NCBI GenBank assembly: GCA_031277035.1
Contig: JAISLY010000060.1
Location: 22,446 to 86,445 of the forward strand
DNA length: 64,000 bases
Direction: 5' to 3'
Source of the DNA: Coriobacteriales bacterium
GTDB lineage: Bacteria; Actinomycetota; Coriobacteriia; Coriobacteriales; UBA8131
Numbering within the stretch: the stretch's first letter is position 1; each line of letters opens with the position of its first letter. Made by a program: the position numbers and the translations under genes. The notes below the pieces were generated by a model. It did no database searches, had not been told where the DNA came from, and worked only from the letters and a program-made list of their open reading frames with translations. Positions 8,063 to 49,964 of the stretch are shown here, in pieces.

Positions 8063-8719
8063 ATGCCCCGAGAGTCCAAAACAAACAGGCAGATTCGCGC
8101 CCTTGAGGTTGCCCGCCGCATGGATGCGCGCTACCCCCAGGCCGAGTGCGCCCTGCATTTCTCCGACCCCTTTACGCTGGTCATCGCGGTGCTCCTCTCC
8201 GCCCAGACAACCGACGTCGCCGTAAACAGGGTGACGCCTGAGCTTTTTGCCCGCTGGCCCGATGCGCCCGCGATGGCCGCCGCCGCCGCCGCAGACATCG
8301 CCGAGGTCATCCGCAGCATCGGCTTTTATCGCGTCAAGGCCGCCCATTGTGTGCAGCTTGCCCAGATGCTGCTCACCGACTACGACGGGCAGGTTCCCGC
8401 CACGATGGAGGAGCTCATACGCCTGCCCGGCGTTGGCCGCAAGACGGCAAACATCGTCCTCAACAACGCCTTTGGCATCGTTGAGGGCATCGCGGTGGAC
8501 ACGCACGTCTTTCGCATCGCCCATCTGTTGGGCTTCTCACCAAAGAGCTCAAACACGCCGGAGAAGGTCGAGCGCGACCTGCTCAAACTGTACCCTCGCG
8601 AACTCTGGGGCCCCGTAAACCATCAGTGGGTGCTCTTCGGGCGTGAGGTCTGCATTGCCCGCAGGCCACGCTGCTCTGAGTGCCCGCTGCGCGACCTGTG
8701 TCCCAGCGCCACCGGCTGA
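8063..8719 (+). CDS. nth: Endonuclease III
   Basis: LLSAQTTDVAVNRVTPELF, LPGVGRKTANIVLNNAFG, VDTHVFRIAHLLGF, Fe-S motif CIARRPRCSECPLRDLC (C-x6-C-x2-C-x5-C). Confidence 0.96.
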   Translation: MPRESKTNRQIRALEVARRMDARYPQAECALHFSDPFTLVIAVLLSAQTTDVAVNRVTPELFARWPDAPAMAAAAAADIAEVIRSIGFYRVKAAHCVQLAQMLLTDYDGQVPATMEELIRLPGVGRKTANIVLNNAFGIVEGIAVDTHVFRIAHLLGFSPKSSNTPEKVERDLLKLYPRELWGPVNHQWVLFGREVCIARRPRCSECPLRDLCPSATG

Positions 8720-8754: not shown

Positions 8755-8935
8755 CTTCAGCTTCTGGATGCCCCTTGATGCCGCCGGGCGCCCCTGAATG
8801 CTGCGTCGGGCGCCCCTGAATGCTGCGCCGGGCGCCCCGAATGCCCCCAAATGCCCCTTGATGCCCCGCCAGGTACCCCGCCGGGCGCCCCTGAATGCTT
8901 CGCTGGATGCCCCCGAATGCTCCGCTGAGAGAATT
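8755..8935. repeat. Degenerate ~21-bp tandem repeats (gccgggcgcccctgaatgctg-type)
   Basis: Multiple copies of gggcgcccctgaatgctgcg between nth and the substrate-binding protein gene. Confidence 0.85.
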
Positions 8936-8958
8936 TCGCACCCGCGCTCCCTCAATTA

Positions 8959-8985
8959 GTGTTACGATTATAAAAGTCGTAACAC
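8959..8985 (+). promoter_or_regulatory. Putative NikR operator GTGTTAC-N13-GTAACAC
   Basis: Perfect inverted repeat GTGTTAC gattataaaagtc GTAACAC upstream of the substrate-binding protein gene; nikR is in the same window. Confidence 0.75.
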
Positions 8986-9042
8986 TCGCAGACACAGAAA
9001 ACGTGTCTGTGGCATCAGGAAAGCATTCAGGAGGTACGCAGA

Positions 9043-10722
9043 ATGAAAGCATTTTCGCGCCGTCGCTTTATGGAATTTGCCAGCGTGGGTGCCCTGGGAG
9101 CAGCCCTGGCCCCGCTCCTCTCCGCCTGCCAGTCATCTACATCGGCAGACGGCACGGGCGGCACGGGCAGCACGGGCACGGACGACGCTGCGGGTGGCAC
9201 CGGCGGTGGCGCCGGTGACAAAGGCCAGGTCATCATCGCAATGGGGACGGGCAATGAGCCGGCGGCCGGCTTTGACCCCTTCTTCGGTTGGGGGGCAAGC
9301 GAGCACAGCCACGAGCCCCTGATTCAGAGCACGCTCATCGCGACCACGGTCGACATGGGTTTTGTCAATGACCTTGCGACCGACTACACCGTAAGCGATG
9401 ACGGACTGCTTGCAAGCTTTACCATTCGCGACGACGTGAAATTCACCGACGGCGAGCCCCTGACCGCACGCGACGTGGCCTACACGCTTAACGGCATCAG
9501 GGCATCGGAGGGCTCTGAGATTGACCTGAGCATGATTCGTGAGGTGAGCGCCCCCAGCGCAACCACCGTCGAGATACACCTGGAGCGCCCCTACAACGCG
9601 CTGCTCTACACCCTGGCGGTCATCGGCATCGTGCCTGAGCACGCGCACGGCGCAGACTACGGCTCCAGTCCCATCGGCAGTGGGCGCTATGTGCTTGAGC
9701 AGTGGGACAGGGGGCAGCAGGTCATCTTTGCCGCCAATCCCGACTATTATGGTACGCCACCCAGGATGCAGCGCGTCATCATCGTGTTTATGGAGGAAGA
9801 CGCCGCACTGGCAGCCGCGCGTGCCGGGCAGGTGGACGTGGCGGCAACCTCAGCGGTCTACAGCAGCCAGGCGATTGAGGGCTATGAGATACTGGCCTGC
9901 AAGTCGGTGGACAGCCGCGGCATCTCACTGCCGACCCCGCCTCCCGGCAACACCACGGGCGAGGGAGCCGAACAAGTGCCGGCCGGCAACGCCGTGACCA
10001 GCGACATCGCTATCCGCCGCGCGCTTAATTACGCCGTCGACCGCGACCTTCTCGTACAGAATGTGCTCAATGGCTATGGCACCGTCGCCTTTGGCGTCTC
10101 GGACGGGATGCCCTGGTCTTCGCCGGATATGCAGGTGGCAGGCAGCATCAACGAGGCGCAGCGCATCCTTGAGGAGGGCGGCTGGATTGCAGGAGCAGAC
10201 GGAATTGTGGAGAAGACTGGCACTAAAGCGAGCTTTGAACTGTGCTATCCTTCAAACGACAGCGTGCGCCAGTCGCTCGCCAACGAGTTTGCCAACCAGG
10301 TGCGCGCGGCAGGAATCGAGGTCATTCCCGTGGGTCTTGGCTGGGACGACCTCTATCCGCGAGCCTATACCGACCCCATCCTGTGGGGCTGGGGCTCCAA
10401 CTCCCCCGCCGAGCTGTATAGCCTCTACCACTCGCAGGGCAGTGGCAACTTTCCGCTCTACAAAAACGCGACCATAGATGCCTACCTTGAGGAAGCCCTC
10501 ACAACGACGCCCATCGAGGAGAGTTTTTCCCTGTGGCAGAAGGCCCAGTGGGACGGCGCCGAAGGTGTTGCCCCGCAGGGCGCGGCGACCTGGGTGTGGT
10601 TTGCCAACATCGACCACCTGTACTTCAAACGCACAGGTCTTGTTGTGGCGGCGCAGAAGCTTCATCCCCACGGGCATGGCTGGGCGGTTGCCAACAACGT
10701 TGACCAGTGGAGCTGGCAGTAA
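9043..10722 (+). CDS. ABC transporter substrate-binding protein, family 5 (nickel/peptide type), predicted lipoprotein with twin-Arg signal
   Basis: N-terminus MKAFSRRRFMEFASVGALGAALAPLLSAC; family-5 motifs DVKFTDGEPLTARDVAYTLNG and IRRALNYAVDRDLL. Confidence 0.9.
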   Translation: MKAFSRRRFMEFASVGALGAALAPLLSACQSSTSADGTGGTGSTGTDDAAGGTGGGAGDKGQVIIAMGTGNEPAAGFDPFFGWGASEHSHEPLIQSTLIATTVDMGFVNDLATDYTVSDDGLLASFTIRDDVKFTDGEPLTARDVAYTLNGIRASEGSEIDLSMIREVSAPSATTVEIHLERPYNALLYTLAVIGIVPEHAHGADYGSSPIGSGRYVLEQWDRGQQVIFAANPDYYGTPPRMQRVIIVFMEEDAALAAARAGQVDVAATSAVYSSQAIEGYEILACKSVDSRGISLPTPPPGNTTGEGAEQVPAGNAVTSDIAIRRALNYAVDRDLLVQNVLNGYGTVAFGVSDGMPWSSPDMQVAGSINEAQRILEEGGWIAGADGIVEKTGTKASFELCYPSNDSVRQSLANEFANQVRAAGIEVIPVGLGWDDLYPRAYTDPILWGWGSNSPAELYSLYHSQGSGNFPLYKNATIDAYLEEALTTTPIEESFSLWQKAQWDGAEGVAPQGAATWVWFANIDHLYFKRTGLVVAAQKLHPHGHGWAVANNVDQWSWQ

Positions 10723-10823: not shown

Positions 10824-11846
10824 ATGCGGTTTTTCGCAGGTCAACTGTTCAAGTTCATCATGCTCATGGTCGCCGTGAGCATGGTGTCTTTTGCCCTCGT
10901 AAGCCTCTCGCCCACAGACCCGGTGCAGATGAACGTCGGGCAGGTCGCCTATCTCAACATGAGCGAGGCAAAGCGTGCTCAGCTGGCGGAGTACTGGGGC
11001 GTGAACACGCCGCTTTGGGAGCGGTACGCCCACTGGGCGAGCGCGGCCCTGCACGGGGATTTGGGAACATCGCTGCGCTATAACGCGCCGGTTGTGCAGG
11101 TCATCGCTACACGCTTTGTCAACTCGGCCGCGTTGATGAGCGTCGCCTGGCTGACGAGCGGCATCTTTGGCCTGCTTCTCGGCATCCTTGCCGCCGTGCG
11201 CCGTGGCGGCTGGCTCGATCGTGCCGTCAAAGCCTACTGTTTCCTGCTTGCCTCGGTGCCCACCTTCTGGCTTGCGCTGCTCGTTCTCATCGTCTTCTCC
11301 GTCTGGCTTGGCATCTTTCCCCTGGGCTTCAGCGTCCCCATCGGCGTAGCCCCCGCCGACGTGACCCTCGCAGACACGCTTCACCACCTCATGCTCCCCG
11401 CGCTCACCCTGAGTGTTGTGGGCGTCGCCAACATCGCGCTGCACACACGCGAGAAGACCATCGACGTCCTTGAGAGCGACTACGTGCGCTTTGCCCGCAC
11501 GCGCGGCGAGTCCACCGCCACCATCATCTGGCGCCACGGCCTGCGCAACCTCGCGCTGCCGGCGCTCACACTGCAATTCGCATCCATCAGCGAGATTTTC
11601 GGCGGCTCGGTCCTTGTCGAGCAGGTCTTCTCCTATCCGGGCCTCGGCCAGGCGGCGGTCACGGCCGGCCTTGGTGGCGACGCCGCGCTGCTCGTCGGCA
11701 TCGCGCTTATCAGCGCCGCGACGGTCTTTGGCGGCAACCTGATTGCAAACCTGCTCTATCGTCTCATCGACCCCCGTATGCGCCCCGCCTCCCGCCGCCC
11801 CGCCCTCAATCTGATGCGGAGAAAGACGGGTGCCTCCCATGAGTAG
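10824..11846 (+). CDS. ABC transporter permease (NikB/DppB type)
   Basis: DLGTSLRYNAPVVQVIATRFVNSAAL; HGLRNLALPALTLQFASISEIFGGSVLVEQVFSYPGLG. Confidence 0.92.
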   Translation: MRFFAGQLFKFIMLMVAVSMVSFALVSLSPTDPVQMNVGQVAYLNMSEAKRAQLAEYWGVNTPLWERYAHWASAALHGDLGTSLRYNAPVVQVIATRFVNSAALMSVAWLTSGIFGLLLGILAAVRRGGWLDRAVKAYCFLLASVPTFWLALLVLIVFSVWLGIFPLGFSVPIGVAPADVTLADTLHHLMLPALTLSVVGVANIALHTREKTIDVLESDYVRFARTRGESTATIIWRHGLRNLALPALTLQFASISEIFGGSVLVEQVFSYPGLGQAAVTAGLGGDAALLVGIALISAATVFGGNLIANLLYRLIDPRMRPASRRPALNLMRRKTGASHE

Positions 11847-11854
11847 GACACCCA

Positions 11855-12028
11855 GACACAAAGGGGACGGTTTCTTTTGTGTTCCCTGAGAGGTGACAAG
11901 GCGACACAAAGGGGACGGTCTCTTTTGTGTCGCCCCGAAGCTGGGCAAAAGCAAACAACAGAGTGTTCTGGGAACACAAAAGAGACCGTCCCCTTTGTGT
12001 CGCCCTTTGTGTCGCCCTTTGTGTCGCC
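11855..12028. repeat. REP/BIME-like palindromic element, copy 1
   Basis: gacacaaaggggacggtctcttttgtgt ... acacaaaagagaccgtcccctttgtgtc inverted repeats around a core gcaaacaacagagtgtt, plus flanking partial copies. Confidence 0.9.
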
Positions 12029-12926
12029 CCTGTCCCCCTCGCAGCCGCTCCTGCACGCTCCTCGCGCGAGTCGTGCCAACGTTGGCAACCGTCGCCGCAC
12101 GCTTATGACCTTCATCATCGCGGCGCTGCTGCTCGTCGCCATCGTTGTCACCGGCCGTCTGCTCACCGCACCGAGCTCTTTTGAGGTCGGCGGCCTGCCC
12201 ATCGCAACCGCAACCGACTTCACGGCAAAAAACCTTGAGCCGGGCCTTTCCCACCCCTTTGGCACCGACTGGATGGGGCGCGACATGCTCGCCCGCACCC
12301 TCGCCGGGCTCTCGACGAGCGTACTCGTCGGCCTGTTTGCAGCCGGAGCCTCGGCGCTGCTCGCGCTCATTCTCGGCACCGTCGCCGCCCTCGGCGGCCG
12401 TCGCGCCGACGCGCTCATCACCTGGCTTATCGACCTCATGCTCGGCATCCCGCACATCGTGCTGCTCATCCTCATCTCCTTTGCCATCGGCAAAGGCTTC
12501 TGGGGAGTGGCCATCGGCGTAGCGCTCACGCACTGGCCCAGCCTCACGCGCGTCATCCGCGCCGAGATACTTCAGTGCCGCGAGTCGGTCTTTGTCGCCC
12601 AGGCGCGCAAGCTCGGTGCCGGACCCTTTACCATCGCCCGCAAACACCTGTTCCCGCACGTTTTTCCGCAGTTCCTCGTCGGGCTCGTGCTGCTGTTCCC
12701 TCACGCCATCCTGCATGAGGCATCCATCACCTTCCTCGGCTTTGGCCTGCCGCCCGAGCAGCCCGCCATCGGCATCATCCTGAGCGAGTCCATGACCTAT
12801 CTCAGTGCCGGTTTCTGGTGGCTTGCGCTGTTCCCGGGCATCGCGCTCATCGCCACGGTGCTGCTGTTCGACCGCGCCGGCTCCAATCTGCGCCGCCTCA
12901 TCGACCCCCATCGTTCGCAGGAATAA
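11877..12926 (+). CDS. ABC transporter permease (NikC/DppC type); true start uncertain, likely at or before 12105 (N-terminal ORF overlaps REP element)
   Basis: HPFGTDWMGRDMLARTLAGLSTSVLVG; ITFLGFGLPPEQPAIGIILSES. Confidence 0.9.
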   Translation: MCSLRGDKATQRGRSLLCRPEAGQKQTTECSGNTKETVPFVSPFVSPFVSPLSPSQPLLHAPRASRANVGNRRRTLMTFIIAALLLVAIVVTGRLLTAPSSFEVGGLPIATATDFTAKNLEPGLSHPFGTDWMGRDMLARTLAGLSTSVLVGLFAAGASALLALILGTVAALGGRRADALITWLIDLMLGIPHIVLLILISFAIGKGFWGVAIGVALTHWPSLTRVIRAEILQCRESVFVAQARKLGAGPFTIARKHLFPHVFPQFLVGLVLLFPHAILHEASITFLGFGLPPEQPAIGIILSESMTYLSAGFWWLALFPGIALIATVLLFDRAGSNLRRLIDPHRSQE

Positions 12927-12940
12927 GGGAGAGGGACGCC

Positions 12941-14071
12941 GTGGTACCGCATGCGCACGAACACATCGACCACTCCGTTGAGCAGACGCATCACCACCAT
13001 GCTCACGCGCAGACCTCCCATCACGTCGACGGACATCATCTGCTTCAGGTTGAGGGATTGAGCATCAGCTTCACGATGTACGAGTCCGCCGAGCCGCGTT
13101 TCTTCAGGGCACGGCGTATGCCGGTGGAGGTCATCAGCGACCTGCACATCGGCGTGCATGCAGGTGAGCTGGTCGCCATCGTTGGCGCGTCCGGCTCAGG
13201 CAAAACGCTGCTCGCCGACGCAATCATGGGCATCTTTGAGCCAAATGCCACGGTGCGCGGACGCATCTGGTTCAATGGTGTGGAGCAAAACGCCGCCTCC
13301 CTCGCAGCGCTTGCCGGCAACGGCATCTCGCTCGTGCCTCAAAGCGTGAACCACCTCGACCCGCTCATGAAGGTCGGGCGTCAGATACTGGGGCATGCGA
13401 CACAAGGTGCGACACAAGGGGGACGGTCTCTTTTGTGTTCCCCCAAAACCGGGCGAAAGCAAACAACAGAGTGTTTTGGGAACACAAAAGAGACCGTCCC
13501 CCTTGTGTCTGGGAACACAAAAGAGACCGTCCCCCTTGTGTCGCACCCGCAGCCGTCCCGCGCCGAGCGTCTCGCTGAGCTGTTCAAGCACTACGATCTG
13601 CCGCCAGAAGTTGCGGACAAATACCCCCATGAGCTCTCCGGCGGTATGGCGCGCCGCGTCCTGCTCTGCTGCGCACTGATGGACGACCCCCAGGTCATCA
13701 TAGCCGATGAGCCAACCCCGGGGCTCGACCTTGAGCTTGCCAGGCGCGCCCTTGACGACTTTCGCGAGTTTGCCGACAGCGGCAGAGGCGTGCTACTCAT
13801 CACCCATGACATCGAACTCGCCCTTCGCGTTGCCGATCGCGTGGCGGTGTTTGCCGAGGGCACCGTCATCGAAGAGACGGCCGTTGCAAACTTCGCCTCC
13901 CCCGACACTCTGGAGCATCCCTTCACGCGTGCCCTCTGGCATGCCCTTCCCGAACATGACTTTCAGGTTCCCGATGACGCCACAGATGCCGCGACGGCGA
14001 CGGCTGCCGACACCACCTCCACCCCCATTGCCAGCGACACACAATCTGAGAAGAACGGCGAGCCATGTTAG
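12941..14071 (+). CDS. ABC transporter ATP-binding protein (NikD/DppD type) with His-rich N-terminus and an in-frame REP-derived insertion
   Basis: GTG start; VGASGSGKTLLADAIMG, LSGGMARRVLLCCALMDDPQVIIADEPTPGLD; N-terminus VVPHAHEHIDHSVEQTHHHHAHAQTSHHVDGHH. Confidence 0.9.
   Translation: MVPHAHEHIDHSVEQTHHHHAHAQTSHHVDGHHLLQVEGLSISFTMYESAEPRFFRARRMPVEVISDLHIGVHAGELVAIVGASGSGKTLLADAIMGIFEPNATVRGRIWFNGVEQNAASLAALAGNGISLVPQSVNHLDPLMKVGRQILGHATQGATQGGRSLLCSPKTGRKQTTECFGNTKETVPLVSGNTKETVPLVSHPQPSRAERLAELFKHYDLPPEVADKYPHELSGGMARRVLLCCALMDDPQVIIADEPTPGLDLELARRALDDFREFADSGRGVLLITHDIELALRVADRVAVFAEGTVIEETAVANFASPDTLEHPFTRALWHALPEHDFQVPDDATDAATATAADTTSTPIASDTQSEKNGEPC
13399..13542. repeat. REP/BIME-like palindromic element, copy 2, inside the ATPase coding sequence
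   Basis: gacacaagggggacggtctcttttgtgttcccccaaaaccgggcgaaagcaaacaacagagtgttttgggaacacaaaagagaccgtcccccttgtgtc; same core as copy 1. Confidence 0.92.
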
Positions 14072-14655
14072 AGGCCCGCGACCTTCACTTTGCCTACCCG
14101 GGTCAGGCCGAGCTGTTCGGCGGACTTACGTTTTCTGCAAAGCCGCAGGAGCGTGTGGCGCTCGCCGCCCCTTCGGGCGCGGGCAAGTCCACCCTCTGCA
14201 AACTGCTTGCCGGCTACCTCACCCCGCAAAGCGGCGCCATACTCATTGACGGCAAGCCGCTGCCAAACAGAGGCGTCTGCCCTGTACAACTCGTCTGGCA
14301 GCACCCCGAACAGGCCGTCGATTCTCATATGCGTATGCAGGCCATACTGGACGAAGGCGGTACCGTCACGCCACAACTGCGCGAAGAGTTGGGGATACGC
14401 GACGAGTGGCTTGTGCGCCACCCCCACGAACTGAGCGGTGGTGAGCTGCAACGCTTCTGCATCGCCCGCGCACTGGCCGCCAATCCGCGCTATCTCATAG
14501 CCGATGAGATCAGCACCATGCTCGACGCGGTGACCCAGGCTCACGTCTGGCAGATGCTGCTTCGCGCCTGCGACGCGCGCGGCATCGGCCTCATATTCGT
14601 CTCGCACTCCCCCGCCCTCACCCGCCGCCTCGCCACCCGGGTCATTGAGCTGTAA
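14065..14655 (+). CDS. ABC transporter ATP-binding protein (NikE/DppF type)
   Basis: APSGAGKSTLCKLLAGYL, LSGGELQRFCIARALAANPRYLIADEISTMLD; overlaps the previous gene. Confidence 0.9.
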   Translation: MLEARDLHFAYPGQAELFGGLTFSAKPQERVALAAPSGAGKSTLCKLLAGYLTPQSGAILIDGKPLPNRGVCPVQLVWQHPEQAVDSHMRMQAILDEGGTVTPQLREELGIRDEWLVRHPHELSGGELQRFCIARALAANPRYLIADEISTMLDAVTQAHVWQMLLRACDARGIGLIFVSHSPALTRRLATRVIEL

Positions 14656-14899: not shown

Positions 14900-15208
14900 A
14901 TGATCGCACCGAAACATCACATCCTCATCTGCGCTGGCACCAAGTTCGTAGGCGATACGCTCGGAACCTGCCATTCCCGCAACGCAGCGGGGCTCGTGCA
15001 GCATCTCATCATGGAGCTTGAGGACCACGACCTCGCAAGCGATGTCATCGTGAGCACCACAAGCTGCTATGGCATATGCGACAAGGGGCCCATCATGGTG
15101 GTCTATCCCGACGGCGTCTGGTACGGCAGGCTTGACACCGATGCCATTGAGGCCATCGTCGAGGAGCATCTTGAGGGAGGCAGTCCGGTGGCACAGTACC
15201 AGATATGA
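14900..15208 (+). CDS. (2Fe-2S) ferredoxin domain-containing protein (thioredoxin-like ferredoxin)
   Basis: HHILICAGTKFVGDTLGTCHSRNAAGLV...SCYGICDKGPIMVVYPDGVWYGRL. Confidence 0.8.
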   Translation: MIAPKHHILICAGTKFVGDTLGTCHSRNAAGLVQHLIMELEDHDLASDVIVSTTSCYGICDKGPIMVVYPDGVWYGRLDTDAIEAIVEEHLEGGSPVAQYQI

Positions 15209-44215: not shown

Positions 44216-44635
44216 ATGAGCGATCTGGTTCGTTTCTCGGTTGCCATGCCCGAGGAGTTGTTGATGCAATTTGACAACCTCGTCGCCCGTCGCGGCTTGG
44301 CAAAAAACCGCTCGGAGGTCATCCGCGACCTCGTGCGCGACGCGCTTGTCGATGAGGAATGGGACGACCCCGACCAGGAAATCGTCGGCACCCTGACGAT
44401 TGTTTTCTCGCACCACGCCGTCGATCTGCAAAACAAGCTCGACCAGATACAGCATTCCCATTACCACACAATCATCTCAGCCATGCACATCCACCTCGAC
44501 GCACACAACTGCCTGGAGGTCGTGGCAATGCGCGGGCGTTCCGACGAGGTACGGGGCATTGCCGAAAGCATTCTCGGGGTCAAGGGCGTCAAGCACGGCC
44601 GCCTGACCACGACTACGACCGGAAGATTCCTGTGA
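44216..44635 (+). CDS. nikR: Nickel-responsive regulator NikR
   Basis: RHH N-terminus LVRFSVAMPEELLMQFDNLVARRGLAKNRSEVIRDLVRDAL; ACT-like metal domain HSHYHTIISAMHIHLDAHNCLEV. Confidence 0.95.
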   Translation: MSDLVRFSVAMPEELLMQFDNLVARRGLAKNRSEVIRDLVRDALVDEEWDDPDQEIVGTLTIVFSHHAVDLQNKLDQIQHSHYHTIISAMHIHLDAHNCLEVVAMRGRSDEVRGIAESILGVKGVKHGRLTTTTTGRFL

Positions 44636-47217
44636 GCCCTCGGCGGGGCGCAGAGCCTCCTGCAGCCGCGCCGCAGGAGGATGCCGCGCCGCGAACCACA
44701 CCGCAGGAGGAGGCCGCGCCGCAGGAGGCCGCGCCGCAAACCGCACAACAAGCCGCGCCGCAGGAGGCCGCGCCGCAGGAGGCCGCGCCGCAAACCGCTC
44801 GTGACCTGCATATTGTGGGCATCGTGCAGGGAGTGGGTTTTCGCCCCTTTGTCTATCGACTGGCACACGAGCAAAATCTGCGTGGATGGGTGCAAAACAC
44901 CGGCGACGGCGTACGTGCGCACGTGGAAGGGGCTCCCGATAATCTGGCTGCCTTTATCTCGGCGCTCAAACGCGAGGCTCCGCCTGCTGCGCGAATCGGT
45001 CGCATCGACACGGCGCCGGCTGCAATCGAGGGGGCCTCGAGCTTCTCCATCCTTCCCTCACGTGAGCGAAGGGGGGCCGAAGCGCACGCCACCGCCACCC
45101 CCGACGGTGCCGAGACGAGCGACATGCTTGCGGGGCACCTTGGGGCGCACAGTACCGCTGTCTCGCCCGACATCGCCACCTGCCCGAAATGCCGCGCAGA
45201 GCTCTTCGACCCCGATAACCGCCGCTTTCATTACCCGTTTATCAACTGCACCGACTGCGGGCCGCGTTTCACCATCATACGTGCGCTGCCCTATGACCGC
45301 CCAAACACTTCAATGGCCGACTTTGAGATGTGCGCACAGTGTGCTGCCGAGTACGCCAACCCGCTCGATCGCCGTTTTCACGCGCAGCCAGACGCCTGCT
45401 TTGCCTGCGGCCCCCATCTGAGTCTGTGGCAGCGCGGCTCCGTTATCCAGGCCCACAGCCGCGAGGGAAGCGATGCCGTGATAGAAACGGTCGCCGCCAT
45501 GCTGAAGGCCGGCGACATCGTCGCCATCAAGGGGCTTGGCGGCTATCATCTGGCCTGCGACGCGACCAATGAGTCGGCGGTCGCACACCTGCGCTCCCGT
45601 AAGCGCCGCACGGACAAGCCGTTCGCGGTCATGGTGCATGACGTACGCGAAGCACGCGCACTCTGCGAGGTCAGTGAGGACGAGGAGGCCGTACTCTGTG
45701 GCACCGTGCGGCCCATCGTATTGCTCAGACGCAGACGCATTGGGCAGGATGGAGAGAGCGCTTCGATTGCCCTGGCTCCCTCGGTTGCAGGCGAGCTGCA
45801 CGAACTGGGCCTGATGCTTGCCTGCACACCCCTGCACCACCTCCTGATGGCTCAGGTTGACGTTCCCCTGGTTATGACTTCGGGCAATCTCAGCGAAGAG
45901 CCGATTATCGCAGACGAAGAGGAGGCCCACGAGGCGCTGGGCGCCTGTGCCGATGCCTTTCTGGACAACAACCGCCCCATCGTATCGCGCTACGACGACA
46001 GTGTCGTGCGGATGGTCGACAGACAGCTTTACCTGGTACGCCGCGCCCGGGGCTATGCTCCCGCGCCCGTGCCCTTTCCTCCATATCTGGAACGCGGAGA
46101 CACCGTTTTGGCAGTCGGGCCCGAACAGAAAAGCACGCTCGCCCTCGTGCGGGAAAGCCAGGCTTTTGTCTCGCAGCACCTTGGAGACCTCGAAAGCGTC
46201 TCGTCGCTGAACGCCTGGCGACAGGCCCTGACACACTACCAGAGCCTCTTTGACCTGCATCCAAACCTTATCGCCTGCGACCAGCACCCCGAGTATCTCT
46301 CGACAAAATGGGCCCGCTCCCAGGATGAGCCGCGCATTGAGGCACAGCATCATCACGCGCACATCGCCAGCGTTCTTGCGGAAAACGGGCTAGAGCAGGC
46401 CATCGGTATCGCTTTTGATGGGACGGGCTTTGGAGATGACGGCACGATCTGGGGCGGCGAGGTGCTGCTTGCGACCTGCGTTGACTATGAGCGTATCGCC
46501 TACCTGCGACCCGTACCGCTGCCAGGGGCAGCGGCGGCCATCGAGCATCCTGAACGCATGGCCTGGTCCTATCTGTTCAGCCTCGGCCTGAGCGAACATG
46601 AAGGAGCGGCGGCGCTTGGCAGGCGCATTGGCCCTGATCGTCAGGCTTTGCTGGAAGGCATTATCGCTGGTAAGCTGAACAGCCCGCTCACGTCCTCGAT
46701 GGGGCGTCTGTTTGACGCAGTGAGCGCCCTGCTGAACATCTGCACCAGGCCAAGCTATGAAGGGCAGCCCGCCGTCGAGTTGGAAGCGGCGCTGTATGGA
46801 GCCTGTGAAGAGACGGACGAGACGAGTGAGAACGCGGCGGATCGCTACCGCTTCACGCTCGATATGCCACATATCGACCCCACCTCGCTTCTGTGCGCCA
46901 TCCTTGAGGATTTGGCGGCGGGCGAGCAGGTCGCTGCCATCTCCCTGCGCTTTCATCAGGCTCTTGTGCGGATGATTGTCGAGGTCTGTACGGCGGCGCG
47001 CCAGGCGAGTGGCATTGCGGCCGTTGCGCTCTCAGGGGGGGTCTTCATGAACCGCTATCTGCTTACCCATACCGTGCCCGCCCTGCGCGCCGCCGGCTTC
47101 TCTCCCGCCCTGAATCGCGATCTGCCTGCCAATGACGGCTGTATCGCCTACGGTCAGGCAGTGATTGCCGCCGCACAACTGGCGCAACTGCGCACAGAAG
47201 GCATAGAGTTGCTCTGA
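44632..47217 (+). CDS. hypF: Carbamoyltransferase HypF
   Basis: Acylphosphatase domain GIVQGVGFRPFVYRLA, zinc fingers CPKCRAELFDPDNRRFHYPFINCTDCGPRFTI, HHHAHIASVLAENGL; GTG overlaps nikR TGA. Confidence 0.96.
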   Translation: MSPRRGAEPPAAAPQEDAAPRTTPQEEAAPQEAAPQTAQQAAPQEAAPQEAAPQTARDLHIVGIVQGVGFRPFVYRLAHEQNLRGWVQNTGDGVRAHVEGAPDNLAAFISALKREAPPAARIGRIDTAPAAIEGASSFSILPSRERRGAEAHATATPDGAETSDMLAGHLGAHSTAVSPDIATCPKCRAELFDPDNRRFHYPFINCTDCGPRFTIIRALPYDRPNTSMADFEMCAQCAAEYANPLDRRFHAQPDACFACGPHLSLWQRGSVIQAHSREGSDAVIETVAAMLKAGDIVAIKGLGGYHLACDATNESAVAHLRSRKRRTDKPFAVMVHDVREARALCEVSEDEEAVLCGTVRPIVLLRRRRIGQDGESASIALAPSVAGELHELGLMLACTPLHHLLMAQVDVPLVMTSGNLSEEPIIADEEEAHEALGACADAFLDNNRPIVSRYDDSVVRMVDRQLYLVRRARGYAPAPVPFPPYLERGDTVLAVGPEQKSTLALVRESQAFVSQHLGDLESVSSLNAWRQALTHYQSLFDLHPNLIACDQHPEYLSTKWARSQDEPRIEAQHHHAHIASVLAENGLEQAIGIAFDGTGFGDDGTIWGGEVLLATCVDYERIAYLRPVPLPGAAAAIEHPERMAWSYLFSLGLSEHEGAAALGRRIGPDRQALLEGIIAGKLNSPLTSSMGRLFDAVSALLNICTRPSYEGQPAVELEAALYGACEETDETSENAADRYRFTLDMPHIDPTSLLCAILEDLAAGEQVAAISLRFHQALVRMIVEVCTAARQASGIAAVALSGGVFMNRYLLTHTVPALRAAGFSPALNRDLPANDGCIAYGQAVIAAAQLAQLRTEGIELL

Positions 47218-47315: not shown

Positions 47316-47549
47316 ATGTGTTTGGCGATACCAGCCCGCATAGAAAGCATCGGCGATAACCGGCTCGCGGTAACCGACGTGCTCGGCGTCAAGCGCCAGG
47401 TTGCCCTGGACCTCGTGCCACAGGCAAAGGTAGGCGACTTTTTACTGGTTCACGCGGGCTATGGCATCGAAGTCATAAGCGAGCAGCTCGCGCAGGAGAC
47501 CCTGGATCTCATTCGCGAAATTCCCGAGTTGGTGGGAACCGAAGCATGA
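47316..47549 (+). CDS. hypC: HypC/HybG/HupF family hydrogenase chaperone
   Basis: MCLAIPARIESI...GDFLLVHAGYGIEVI. Confidence 0.96.
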   Translation: MCLAIPARIESIGDNRLAVTDVLGVKRQVALDLVPQAKVGDFLLVHAGYGIEVISEQLAQETLDLIREIPELVGTEA

Positions 47550-48667
47550 CGATGCCTGATATGGCTCTGCTCGACTCCTTTCGCGATCCTCTGCTTGCCC
47601 GCAGACTGCTTGCGGCCATACAAAACAGAGCGGCACATCTTGCCGAACACACGAAGCGGCCCGTGCATCTCATGGAGGTCTGCGGCACGCACACCGTCGC
47701 CATCGCCCGATCGGGATTCTGCTCGGTACTGCCCGAGAGCGTCCGGCTCATCAGCGGGCCGGGTTGCCCCGTCTGCGTAACCTCGAACAGCGACATCGAC
47801 CGCATCATCGCGCTGACCCGCATACCCGGTGTGACCCTGGCAAGCTTTGGTGATATGATACGAGTACCCGGATCGAGCAGCTCCCTGCAGACGCGCAAGG
47901 CCGAGGGGGCCGACATAGAGGTGCTGTACTCGCCCCTTGACGCACTGCGACTTGCCCAGGAGCGTCCTGAGCGGCAGATTGTCTTCGTCGGTGTCGGTTT
48001 TGAGACAACCGCGCCGCTGATAGCCGCGACTGTCGAGCGAGCGGTCGCGCAGGGTGTGGAGAACTTCAGCGTCCTTGTGGCGCACAAGCGGGTGCCGCCT
48101 GCCCTGGCGGCCCTCGTCAACGATACCGAAGTCGCCCTCGACGCACTCATCCTGCCCGGGCATGTCAGCACCGTGATTGGCAGTGAGCCCTATCGCTTCC
48201 TGGCCCGCGACCACAACATCCCCGGGGTCATCACCGGCTTTGAGCCCCTCGACGTGCTCCAGGGTATCGCGCAGCTGCTGGAACTGCTCGCGGCGGGGCG
48301 GGCGGACATCGAGATAGCCTACCGACGCGCCGTCCATGTTGAGGGAAACCCGACCGCGCTGGCTGCCCTGGAACGGGTCTTTGAGCCATCGGATGCCACC
48401 TGGCGCGGACTTGGTCGGATTGCGCAGAGTGGCTATGTGCTGCGCGAAGAGTTTGCCGCCTTTGACGCATTGCGCCGCTTCTCACCAGAAGTCGAGCCGA
48501 CCGTCGAGCCCCAGGGTTGTCGATGTGGAGAGGTGCTGCGCGGTGTCATGGCGCCGGGCGACTGCCCTCTGTTCGCGCGCGTGTGCACACCCGCACACCC
48601 CGTTGGCCCCTGCATGGTCTCCTCGGAGGGCAGCTGCGCGGCGCATTATCGCTATCGGAGGGGATGA
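47546..48667 (+). CDS. hypD: Hydrogenase formation protein HypD
   Basis: LMEVCGTHTVAIARSGFCSVLPESVRLISGPGCPVCVT; GVGFETTAP. Confidence 0.97.
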   Translation: MTMPDMALLDSFRDPLLARRLLAAIQNRAAHLAEHTKRPVHLMEVCGTHTVAIARSGFCSVLPESVRLISGPGCPVCVTSNSDIDRIIALTRIPGVTLASFGDMIRVPGSSSSLQTRKAEGADIEVLYSPLDALRLAQERPERQIVFVGVGFETTAPLIAATVERAVAQGVENFSVLVAHKRVPPALAALVNDTEVALDALILPGHVSTVIGSEPYRFLARDHNIPGVITGFEPLDVLQGIAQLLELLAAGRADIEIAYRRAVHVEGNPTALAALERVFEPSDATWRGLGRIAQSGYVLREEFAAFDALRRFSPEVEPTVEPQGCRCGEVLRGVMAPGDCPLFARVCTPAHPVGPCMVSSEGSCAAHYRYRRG

Positions 48668-48761
48668 GCATGGGCGATACCGTCCTTTTGCCTCCGCACT
48701 TGATGTTAAGTAATGATTCAGCACATCGGAGGGGATGAGCATGGGCGATACCGTCCTTTTG
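48654..48761. repeat. 37-bp direct duplication of hypD/hypE junction (48654-48690 and 48725-48761)
   Basis: ATCGGAGGGGATGAGCATGGGCGATACCGTCCTTTTG present twice, 71 bp apart. Confidence 0.97.
48664..48738 (+). CDS. Candidate 24-aa coupled mini-ORF created by the duplication (MSMGDTVLLPPHLMLSNDSAHRRG)
   Basis: Starts in ATGA overlap with hypD stop and ends in ATGA overlap with hypE start. Confidence 0.4.
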   Translation: MSMGDTVLLPPHLMLSNDSAHRRG

Positions 48762-49964
48762 GCGCATGGTTCTGGCGGCTCGATGATGCGAGAGCTCATC
48801 GAGGGCCTGTTCTTTGATGCCTATGGCTCCGCAGAACTATTGCGCGGCGACGACGCGGCGATTCTTGAAACGCTGGCGGCAGGTGGTGCAGATGCCGGAC
48901 GACTGGCGCTTTCTACCGATACCTTTGTGGTCAGTCCGTATTTCTTCCCCGGAGGAGACATCGGCCGCCTCGCTGTCTGCGGCACGGTCAACGACGTGGC
49001 GACCTCCGGAGCCGTCCCCCTGTGGCTTTCGGTCGGCTTCATCCTGGAGGAAGGCCTGCCGCTGGCTGACCTCAGAGGTATCTGTGCCTCGATGGCCGCT
49101 GCCGCGCGCGAGGCCGGCGTGCGAATTGTCACCGGCGATACGAAGGTGGTCGAGCGGGGGCATGGCGATGGCATCTACATCAACACGACGGGCGTTGGCC
49201 TGTTTGCGCCGGCCCTCGGGTACGCGGACAGCGGCCATCGAGGCACACGGCGGGCCCTCTCGGGGGCAGACTGTCAGCCCGGCGACCGCGTCCTGCTCTC
49301 GGGGACACTCGGCGACCACGGCATCGCCATCGTCTCGGCCCGTGAGAATCTGGGATTTACTTCGACGATTGAAAGCGATGTCGCACCCCTGAACCATCTG
49401 GTCGCCGACGTGCTTGACCTTGCCCCCCATACGCGATGCTTTCGCGATCCAACCCGCGGCGGCCTGGCCTCGACGCTCAATGAGCTGGCGATGCAAAGTC
49501 AGGTCGCGATTATTGTTGAGGAGGAGGCCGTACCCGTACACGACGCCGTGCGAGGCGCCTGCGAGATGCTTGGCTATGACATCTTCCAGGTGGCCAACGA
49601 GGGCAAGATGGTGGCCGTCGTGCCTGCGCAGGAAGCCGAGGCGGCGCTTTGTGCGATGCGGGCGAGCCGTTATGGCAAAGACGCCGCGCTCATCGGCGAG
49701 GTCGCTGCGATTGAGGGCGGCGCTGTGGACGGTGTGAGCGCTGCGAGCGCTGTGGGCAGTGTGGGCGCGGCGGGTGCGGCGGGCGGAGACGGCGGGGGCG
49801 CTGTGGGCGCTGTGGGCGCGACGGGCGGAGACGGCGGGGGTGGTGGCAGGCGAACAGACAGAGCATATGCGGGAGCCGAGCCACTTGTCACCGTCCGCAC
49901 CGCCTTCGGCTCACAGCGCGTTCTCGACATGCTGGTCGGAGAGCAACTTCCCCGCATCTGCTGA
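48735..49964 (+). CDS. hypE: Hydrogenase expression/formation protein HypE
   Basis: LLAHGSGGSMMRELIEGLF; FRDPTRGGLASTLNELA; C-terminus ends LPRIC as expected for HypE. Confidence 0.96.
   Translation: MSMGDTVLLAHGSGGSMMRELIEGLFFDAYGSAELLRGDDAAILETLAAGGADAGRLALSTDTFVVSPYFFPGGDIGRLAVCGTVNDVATSGAVPLWLSVGFILEEGLPLADLRGICASMAAAAREAGVRIVTGDTKVVERGHGDGIYINTTGVGLFAPALGYADSGHRGTRRALSGADCQPGDRVLLSGTLGDHGIAIVSARENLGFTSTIESDVAPLNHLVADVLDLAPHTRCFRDPTRGGLASTLNELAMQSQVAIIVEEEAVPVHDAVRGACEMLGYDIFQVANEGKMVAVVPAQEAEAALCAMRASRYGKDAALIGEVAAIEGGAVDGVSAASAVGSVGAAGAAGGDGGGAVGAVGATGGDGGGGGRRTDRAYAGAEPLVTVRTAFGSQRVLDMLVGEQLPRIC

Follow-up and report, generated by a model that had tools for sequence, protein, structure and literature searches.

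What does a five-gene ABC importer that homology alone labels an 'oligopeptide/nickel' transporter carry, and what switches it on? The importer lies in the window, by which we mean the whole stretch of 64,000 nucleotides analysed from a Coriobacteriales bacterium, downstream of a palindrome that an initial annotation had read as an operator of the nickel regulator NikR. We consider it very probable that this dyad is a NikR operator controlling a nickel importer of the YntABCDE/NikABCDE type, and that the imported nickel feeds a [NiFe] hydrogenase; binding, nickel dependence, repression and substrate are each predicted from sequence comparison. By way of its operator, the transporter becomes assignable to nickel, and a NikR regulon can be predicted across an order of anaerobic gut bacteria, with Eggerthella, Gordonibacter, Adlercreutzia and Collinsella as relatives. 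Such a regulon would tie nickel supply to hydrogenase, and it predicts new nickel genes.

A Perfect Dyad Upstream of the Importer

A pattern scan of the window finds GTGTTAC-N13-GTAACAC, with no mismatches, at 8959-8985, where the initial annotation had described a perfect dyad upstream of the binding-protein gene. Both 7-bp arms and the spacer of 13 agree with the operator class GTGTTAC-N13/14-GTAACAC. The full 27-mer is GTGTTACGATTATAAAAGTCGTAACAC, and its symmetry reaches 9-bp arms, GTGTTACGA-N9-TCGTAACAC. The dyad ends 57 bp before the ATG of a family-5 solute-binding protein gene (9043-10722); between it and the upstream gene lies a GC-rich repetitive tract of GCCCCTGAATGC units (about 8760-8930).

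8953..8958, + strand: CAATTA, at the position of the -10-like TATAGT of most orthologous promoters; a poor match in the window
8959..8985, no strand assigned: NikR-type operator GTGTTACGA-TTATAAAAG-TCGTAACAC, N13 class, arms inward (exact scan, and conservation upstream of 15/15 family orthologues)
8969..8974, + strand: TATAAA in the dyad spacer, the -10 proposed in the initial annotation; orthologues have TATAGT abutting the dyad instead
9029..9035, + strand: AGGAGGT ribosome-binding site of the binding-protein gene (sequence)

When up to three mismatches are allowed, the window contains three dyad matches against a shuffle mean of 0.71, and the one at 8959-8985 is the sole exact match among them. 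The whole draft genome (1,823,099 bases, or 1.82 Mb; 72.7% complete) contains two exact copies and a third with two mismatches; copies with a single mismatch are absent. The second exact copy lies on a different contig and precedes the small-subunit gene of a [NiFe]-hydrogenase operon by 189 bp; this operon encodes the small subunit, the large subunit, a cytochrome b and a maturation protease. The two-mismatch copy, on contig C52, was considered as a NikR site and is taken as a chance match, as no clear nickel gene adjoins it.

The Importer Operon

Pfam assignments bear out the five-gene ABC importer of the initial annotation, with a binding protein (SBP_bac_5) followed by two BPD_transp_1 permeases and two ABC ATPases in one operon, the layout of YntABCDE. 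The gene order is identical in relatives.

9043..10722, + strand: predicted YntA/NikA-type extracytoplasmic nickel-binding lipoprotein (SBP_bac_5; Pfam; best solved relative Yersinia YntA, 4ofl)
10824..11846, + strand: permease 1, NikB/YntB-like (Pfam, NCBIfam)
12105..12926, + strand: permease 2, NikC/YntC-like (ORF open from 11877; start placed past an upstream repeat element)
12818..14071, + strand: ATPase 1, NikD/YntD-like (exact start uncertain; conserved N-terminal tail rich in His, and a repeat inserted in frame at about 13397-13547)
14065..14655, + strand: ATPase 2, NikE/YntE-like (ORF, Pfam, NCBIfam)

Compared with proteins of solved structure, the binding protein has YntA (4ofl) as its best match (335 bits, E 6e-99), ahead of the next different chain at 162 bits and of E. 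coli NikA at 92-95 bits; most peptide-binding proteins of solved structure score lower than NikA. The NCBIfam equivalog models for NikA/B/C/D/E are matched below their cut-offs only (TIGR02294, 125.6 versus 393), and since this includes NikA, the binding protein is filed as YntA-like. Being far closer to YntA than to peptide-binding proteins, it supports the earlier proposal of a nickel importer rather than an oligopeptide transporter, and the assignment of the operon as a predicted nickel system is strongly supported.

Several features of the operon are of separate interest. The N-terminus of ATPase 1 (window about 12900-13010) carries a His-rich stretch, HHHHAHAxTSHHVxGHHLLQVE, which is kept in all seven proteins aligned and is possibly a nickel-binding or sensing tail. 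A palindromic repeat, GACACAAAGGGGACGGTCTCTTTTGTGT plus its complement, occurs at 11855-12004 and 13397-13547, with about 20 half-elements genome-wide; one copy stands ahead of permease 2 and the other in frame within the ATPase 1 gene, where it lengthens the coding sequence between the Walker A and ABC signature motifs. At this position relatives from a second family have no insertion, and other members of the window's family have unrelated extra residues. A short ORF 3' of the importer (14900-15208) resembles a [2Fe-2S] ferredoxin of the thioredoxin-like kind; in nine relatives whose loci were checked, the importer has no homologue of it alongside.

NikR and the hyp Genes

A gene encoding the predicted regulator lies in the same window, directly followed by hypF as the initial annotation had it, together with further hydrogenase maturation genes.

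44216..44635, + strand: NikR, predicted regulator (NF003381, 188 bits versus a cut-off of 105)
44636..47217, + strand: HypF, hydrogenase maturation (start placed at about 44636; the open frame from 44359 overlaps nikR)
47546..48667, + strand: HypD, hydrogenase maturation (TIGR00075)
48735..49964, + strand: HypE, hydrogenase maturation (TIGR02124)

The protein exceeds the equivalog cut-offs of both NF003381 and NF002815 and falls below that of TIGR02793 (nikR; 104.7 bits versus 175.45). It aligns over its full length with the NikR structure 2bj1 from Pyrococcus horikoshii and is predicted to combine a ribbon-helix-helix with a nickel-binding His3-Cys domain. Residues H80, H91, H93 and C99, invariant in 29/29 NikRs of the family, align with the nickel ligands known from E. 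coli NikR. The arrangement with hypF is likewise conserved: of 28 family genomes, 27 have hypF directly 3' of nikR, and in the remaining one the sequence stops at a contig edge.

Conservation of the Dyad across the Order

According to the initial annotation, a lack of the dyad upstream of orthologous importers would speak against its reading, which withstands this check. Within the window's family, 23 of 33 genomes contain the dyad at no more than one mismatch, and an orthologue of the binding protein (at least 60% identity to that of the window) occurs in 15 genomes, in all of which the dyad lies directly upstream. A further set comprised 80 named loci that encode a protein related to the binding protein; the 26 of these from Coriobacteriales/Eggerthellaceae, a count that leaves out Collinsella, include 24 with the dyad at up to one mismatch, and one of the two exceptions is a form with a flipped arm (see below). 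As the dyad is found in 0/47 Firmicutes loci of this set, the substrate assignment draws on the Coriobacteriia. Several importer promoters carry tandem dyads 50-53 bp apart, about five helical turns (L104-L107, L111, G001:C54:10959-11035).

Across 301 genomes of the order, many of them incomplete metagenome-assembled genomes (MAGs), the exact N13 dyad is present in 66 and a reversed control pattern in none. NikR was found in 203, including all 66 with the exact dyad, a co-occurrence with a hypergeometric probability of 7e-14, calculated over kin genomes that are not independent and with no correction for phylogeny. The use of NikR-negative genomes as a clean negative group is limited both by MAG incompleteness and by phylogeny, family f5 being mostly devoid of dyad and regulator alike. 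Two genomes of family f1 (G012 and G013), both less than 80% complete, contain the importer and the dyad with NikR not detected.

Matching operator sequences suggest that family f2 is Eggerthellaceae-like and family f10 Collinsella-like. NikR occurs in many genomes of f10 and the exact N13 site in none, so that the presence of NikR failed to predict the dyad there until N14 spacers and flipped arms were scanned.

Predicted Targets of the Operator

Sorted by neighboring gene, sites with exact arms lie upstream of importers of the window type, NikM/CbiM with a PDGLE domain, proteins with an FmdE domain, BtuF-like binding proteins, [NiFe] hydrogenase genes or the gene of a new small membrane protein, with 8-9 distinct sites left without a class; several of the loci were retrieved by the motif itself, which biases the class proportions. 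In f2 most sites precede the window-type importer, and further ones precede NikM or a gene for a BtuF-like protein; in f10, all 20 N14 sites retrieved are upstream of CbiM/NikM homologues.

The strongest argument that the importer carries nickel is that it and NikM largely replace each other under a common operator. Most genomes that lack the importer encode NikM in its place. Within the family, 15 genomes encode the importer and 12 a nickel-type NikM, with an overlap of one (Fisher p = 0.0014), and 11 of the 12 nickel-type NikM promoters have the site when variants are counted. A second group of CbiM proteins, presumed to serve cobalt, has the site in 0/7 promoters. Genome G002, from the same genus as the window genome, lacks the importer and encodes a NikM with a two-mismatch site.

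Other targets were noted in the course of the survey. FmdE-domain proteins recur downstream of the dyad (L078, L081, L085, L297, L300, L303, L304, L308, L309), which suggests a role in nickel handling for this FmdE subfamily and its transporters; in one locus, an FmdE-domain protein adjoins a BtuF-like binding protein. In at least four genomes, which belong to three families, NikR-type operators precede the genes of a pair of small membrane proteins of about 135 and 100 amino acids ('MACFLV...WHGEVV.PPFLTAM' and 'MTLIITA...'; L307:1547-2256, L299, L296, L083:3874-4650). The pair, which has no significant family in Pfam or NCBIfam, is a predicted NikR target. Two f2 genomes (L262:2788-3150, L264:2446-2808) have two N14 dyads, 335 bp apart, upstream of a gene resembling an electron-transfer-flavoprotein subunit, a possible further target.

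Promoter Architecture and Proposed Mechanism

The initial annotation held that the dyad spans a TATAAA-like -10. The TATAAA is indeed within the spacer; its role as a -10 is not borne out by orthologous promoters, which have TATAGT at the dyad edge. Among 48 distinct importer promoters, 27 have a TAnnnT box, in most cases TATAGT, that stops right at the 5' edge of the dyad, compared with a mean of 1.5 at other offsets. The overlap of operator and promoter is clear in the orthologues, while the hexamers of the window itself are weak. A -10-like box abutting the dyad would place the transcription start inside it, such that bound NikR would block transcription, and we infer repression by nickel.

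According to this model, when nickel is sufficient, Ni(II) would occupy the conserved His3-Cys site of NikR, and the two ribbon-helix-helix dimers of Ni-NikR would settle on the two GTGTTAC arms, covering the transcription start and silencing the importer operon. Under nickel scarcity, NikR would leave the operator and the importer would be made. Imported nickel would then supply the [NiFe] hydrogenase, in keeping with the presence of hypF, hypD and hypE beside nikR and of the genome's other exact dyad at the hydrogenase promoter.

Sites in hydrogenase promoters are arranged differently: they lie about 160-290 bp from the start codon, have no box at their edge and mostly have a 14-bp spacer. 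Of 28 hydrogenase promoters searched over 400 bp, 16 contain an N14 site at up to three mismatches (shuffle mean 0.45), and one contains an N13 site, namely that of the window genome. Exact N14 sites precede the hydrogenase in two genomes of a second family. A general rule of N13 for importers and N14 for enzymes was considered and dropped, as the NikM importers of f10 use N14. Alignment of the hydrogenase promoters reveals a conserved block downstream of the dyad and no convincing -35/-10. This block, approximately ACCATTTGCCCGCTGC-N4-ACCGCTTACCGAG, is just downstream of the NikR site (L224, L226, L227, L228, L230, L231, L222); in L230 it is also found without a NikR site.

Alternative Explanations

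It is conceivable that the operator belongs to NikR but the main substrate of the importer is another metal or complex, such as cobalt or a nickel-metallophore chelate, and not free or histidine-bound nickel. Peptide/nickel importers of this family are known to be promiscuous, some relatives have metallophores, and the importer has weak NCBIfam matches to the staphylopine-metal protein CntA. Set against this are the nickel-binding YntA as the nearest solved structure, the absence of the operator from the seven promoters of the presumed cobalt CbiM group, and the way in which the importer largely alternates with NikM under a common operator, and we judge a different main substrate to be unlikely.

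It is more improbable still that some other repressor, co-occurring with NikR by coincidence, reads the dyad. The absence of the exact N13 site from f10, despite its many NikR genes, would fit such a repressor, but in f10 NikM and the importer are preceded by sites with an N14 spacer or a flipped arm, all 66 exact-dyad genomes encode NikR, and the consensus is that published for NikR in delta-proteobacteria (PMC545781). That no regulator is involved, the dyad being a chance palindrome or an RNA hairpin, for instance one that terminates the upstream gene, has a negligible probability. The dyad is an inverted repeat downstream of a gene ending at 8719, as a terminator would be, but no T-run follows it; the 48 distinct importer promoters keep the arms while the AT-rich spacer varies, the arms recur at unrelated nickel genes, and the control pattern is found in 0/301 genomes. 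Conservation refutes chance, and the exact matches exhibit no arm variation, whereas a role in RNA calls for compensatory changes. The reading as a NikR operator upstream of a nickel importer is the one we retain.

Relation to Known Nickel Systems

The initial annotation had given GTGTTAC-N13/14-GTAACAC as a NikR consensus of several non-enterobacterial lineages, and it is in fact published for delta-proteobacteria, in which NikR control of importers and a hydrogenase was predicted (PMC545781). The operators of Geobacter and Desulfovibrio (Rodionov et al. 2004, PMC545781) resemble that of the window in their arms, their N13/N14 spacers and their nickel importer and hydrogenase targets. The targets differ in kind: nikMNQO and an iron-only hydrogenase in delta-proteobacteria (PMC545781), as against a [NiFe] hydrogenase and an importer of the YntABCDE type in the Coriobacteriia. 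NikR control of [NiFe] hydrogenase had been predicted earlier in other organisms (PMC2667541).

The importer shares the order SBP-permease-permease-ATPase-ATPase with Yersinia YntABCDE (4ofl/4ofo), its binding protein aligning with YntA over residues 66-558 (335 bits). Yersinia ynt is linked to urease; the window importer, unlike ynt, has a NikR dyad, hydrogenase genes nearby and the conserved His-rich N-terminal tail of ATPase 1. With E. coli NikABCDE-NikR the window system has in common the transporter superfamily and the regulator family. E. coli NikR is a tetrameric ribbon-helix-helix protein that represses in a nickel-dependent manner. In the window, unlike in E. coli, nikR adjoins hypF and not the importer, and the binding protein is distant from NikA; the E. 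coli operator is GTATGAT-N13/14-ATCATAC (PMC545781). The window NikR aligns with that of Helicobacter pylori at about 100 bits. The Helicobacter regulator differs in operator motif and target set from what we describe here; it both activates and represses genes (PMC9860126). The literature library searched yielded no paper on NikR in the Coriobacteriia, and this nickel-control switch, although of a known type, does not seem to have been described in these gut bacteria.

Arm Orientation

In many operators of the Coriobacteriia, unlike those of the delta-proteobacterial system, just one arm is flipped; sites with both arms reversed were reported in D. psychrophila, a delta-proteobacterium, in 2004 (PMC545781). 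The exact pattern GTGTTAC-N13-GTGTTAC occurs in 29 of 301 genomes of the order versus 5 for the control. Most of the 30 flipped-arm loci retrieved are upstream of window-type importer, NikM, FmdE or BtuF-like genes. Flipped sites also occur in loci retrieved by protein homology and not by the motif (Collinsella importers, family NikM and family hydrogenases), and are therefore not merely an effect of the search. One example is GTGTTACGAATTTGAAATTCGTGTTAC; others, with N13 or, at hydrogenases, N14 spacers, are in L288-L316; L143, L144, L145, L147; L244, L246, L248; and L268, L271, L272, L277.

An arm is either GT-GTT-AC or GT-AAC-AC, and as GTT and AAC are reverse complements, a flip retains the outer GT and AC. 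On a simple reading, the NikR tetramer would place one ribbon-helix-helix dimer, itself two-fold symmetric, on each arm. We propose, tentatively and with slightly more doubt than confidence, that NikR of the Coriobacteriia reads its arms regardless of orientation by means of such dimers, and that its regulon takes in both the small membrane protein pair, which may handle nickel, and the [NiFe] hydrogenase, which NikR would control, possibly as an activator, from a far-upstream site of mostly 14-bp spacing. These natural operator variants provide material on half-site recognition by a tetrameric ribbon-helix-helix regulator.
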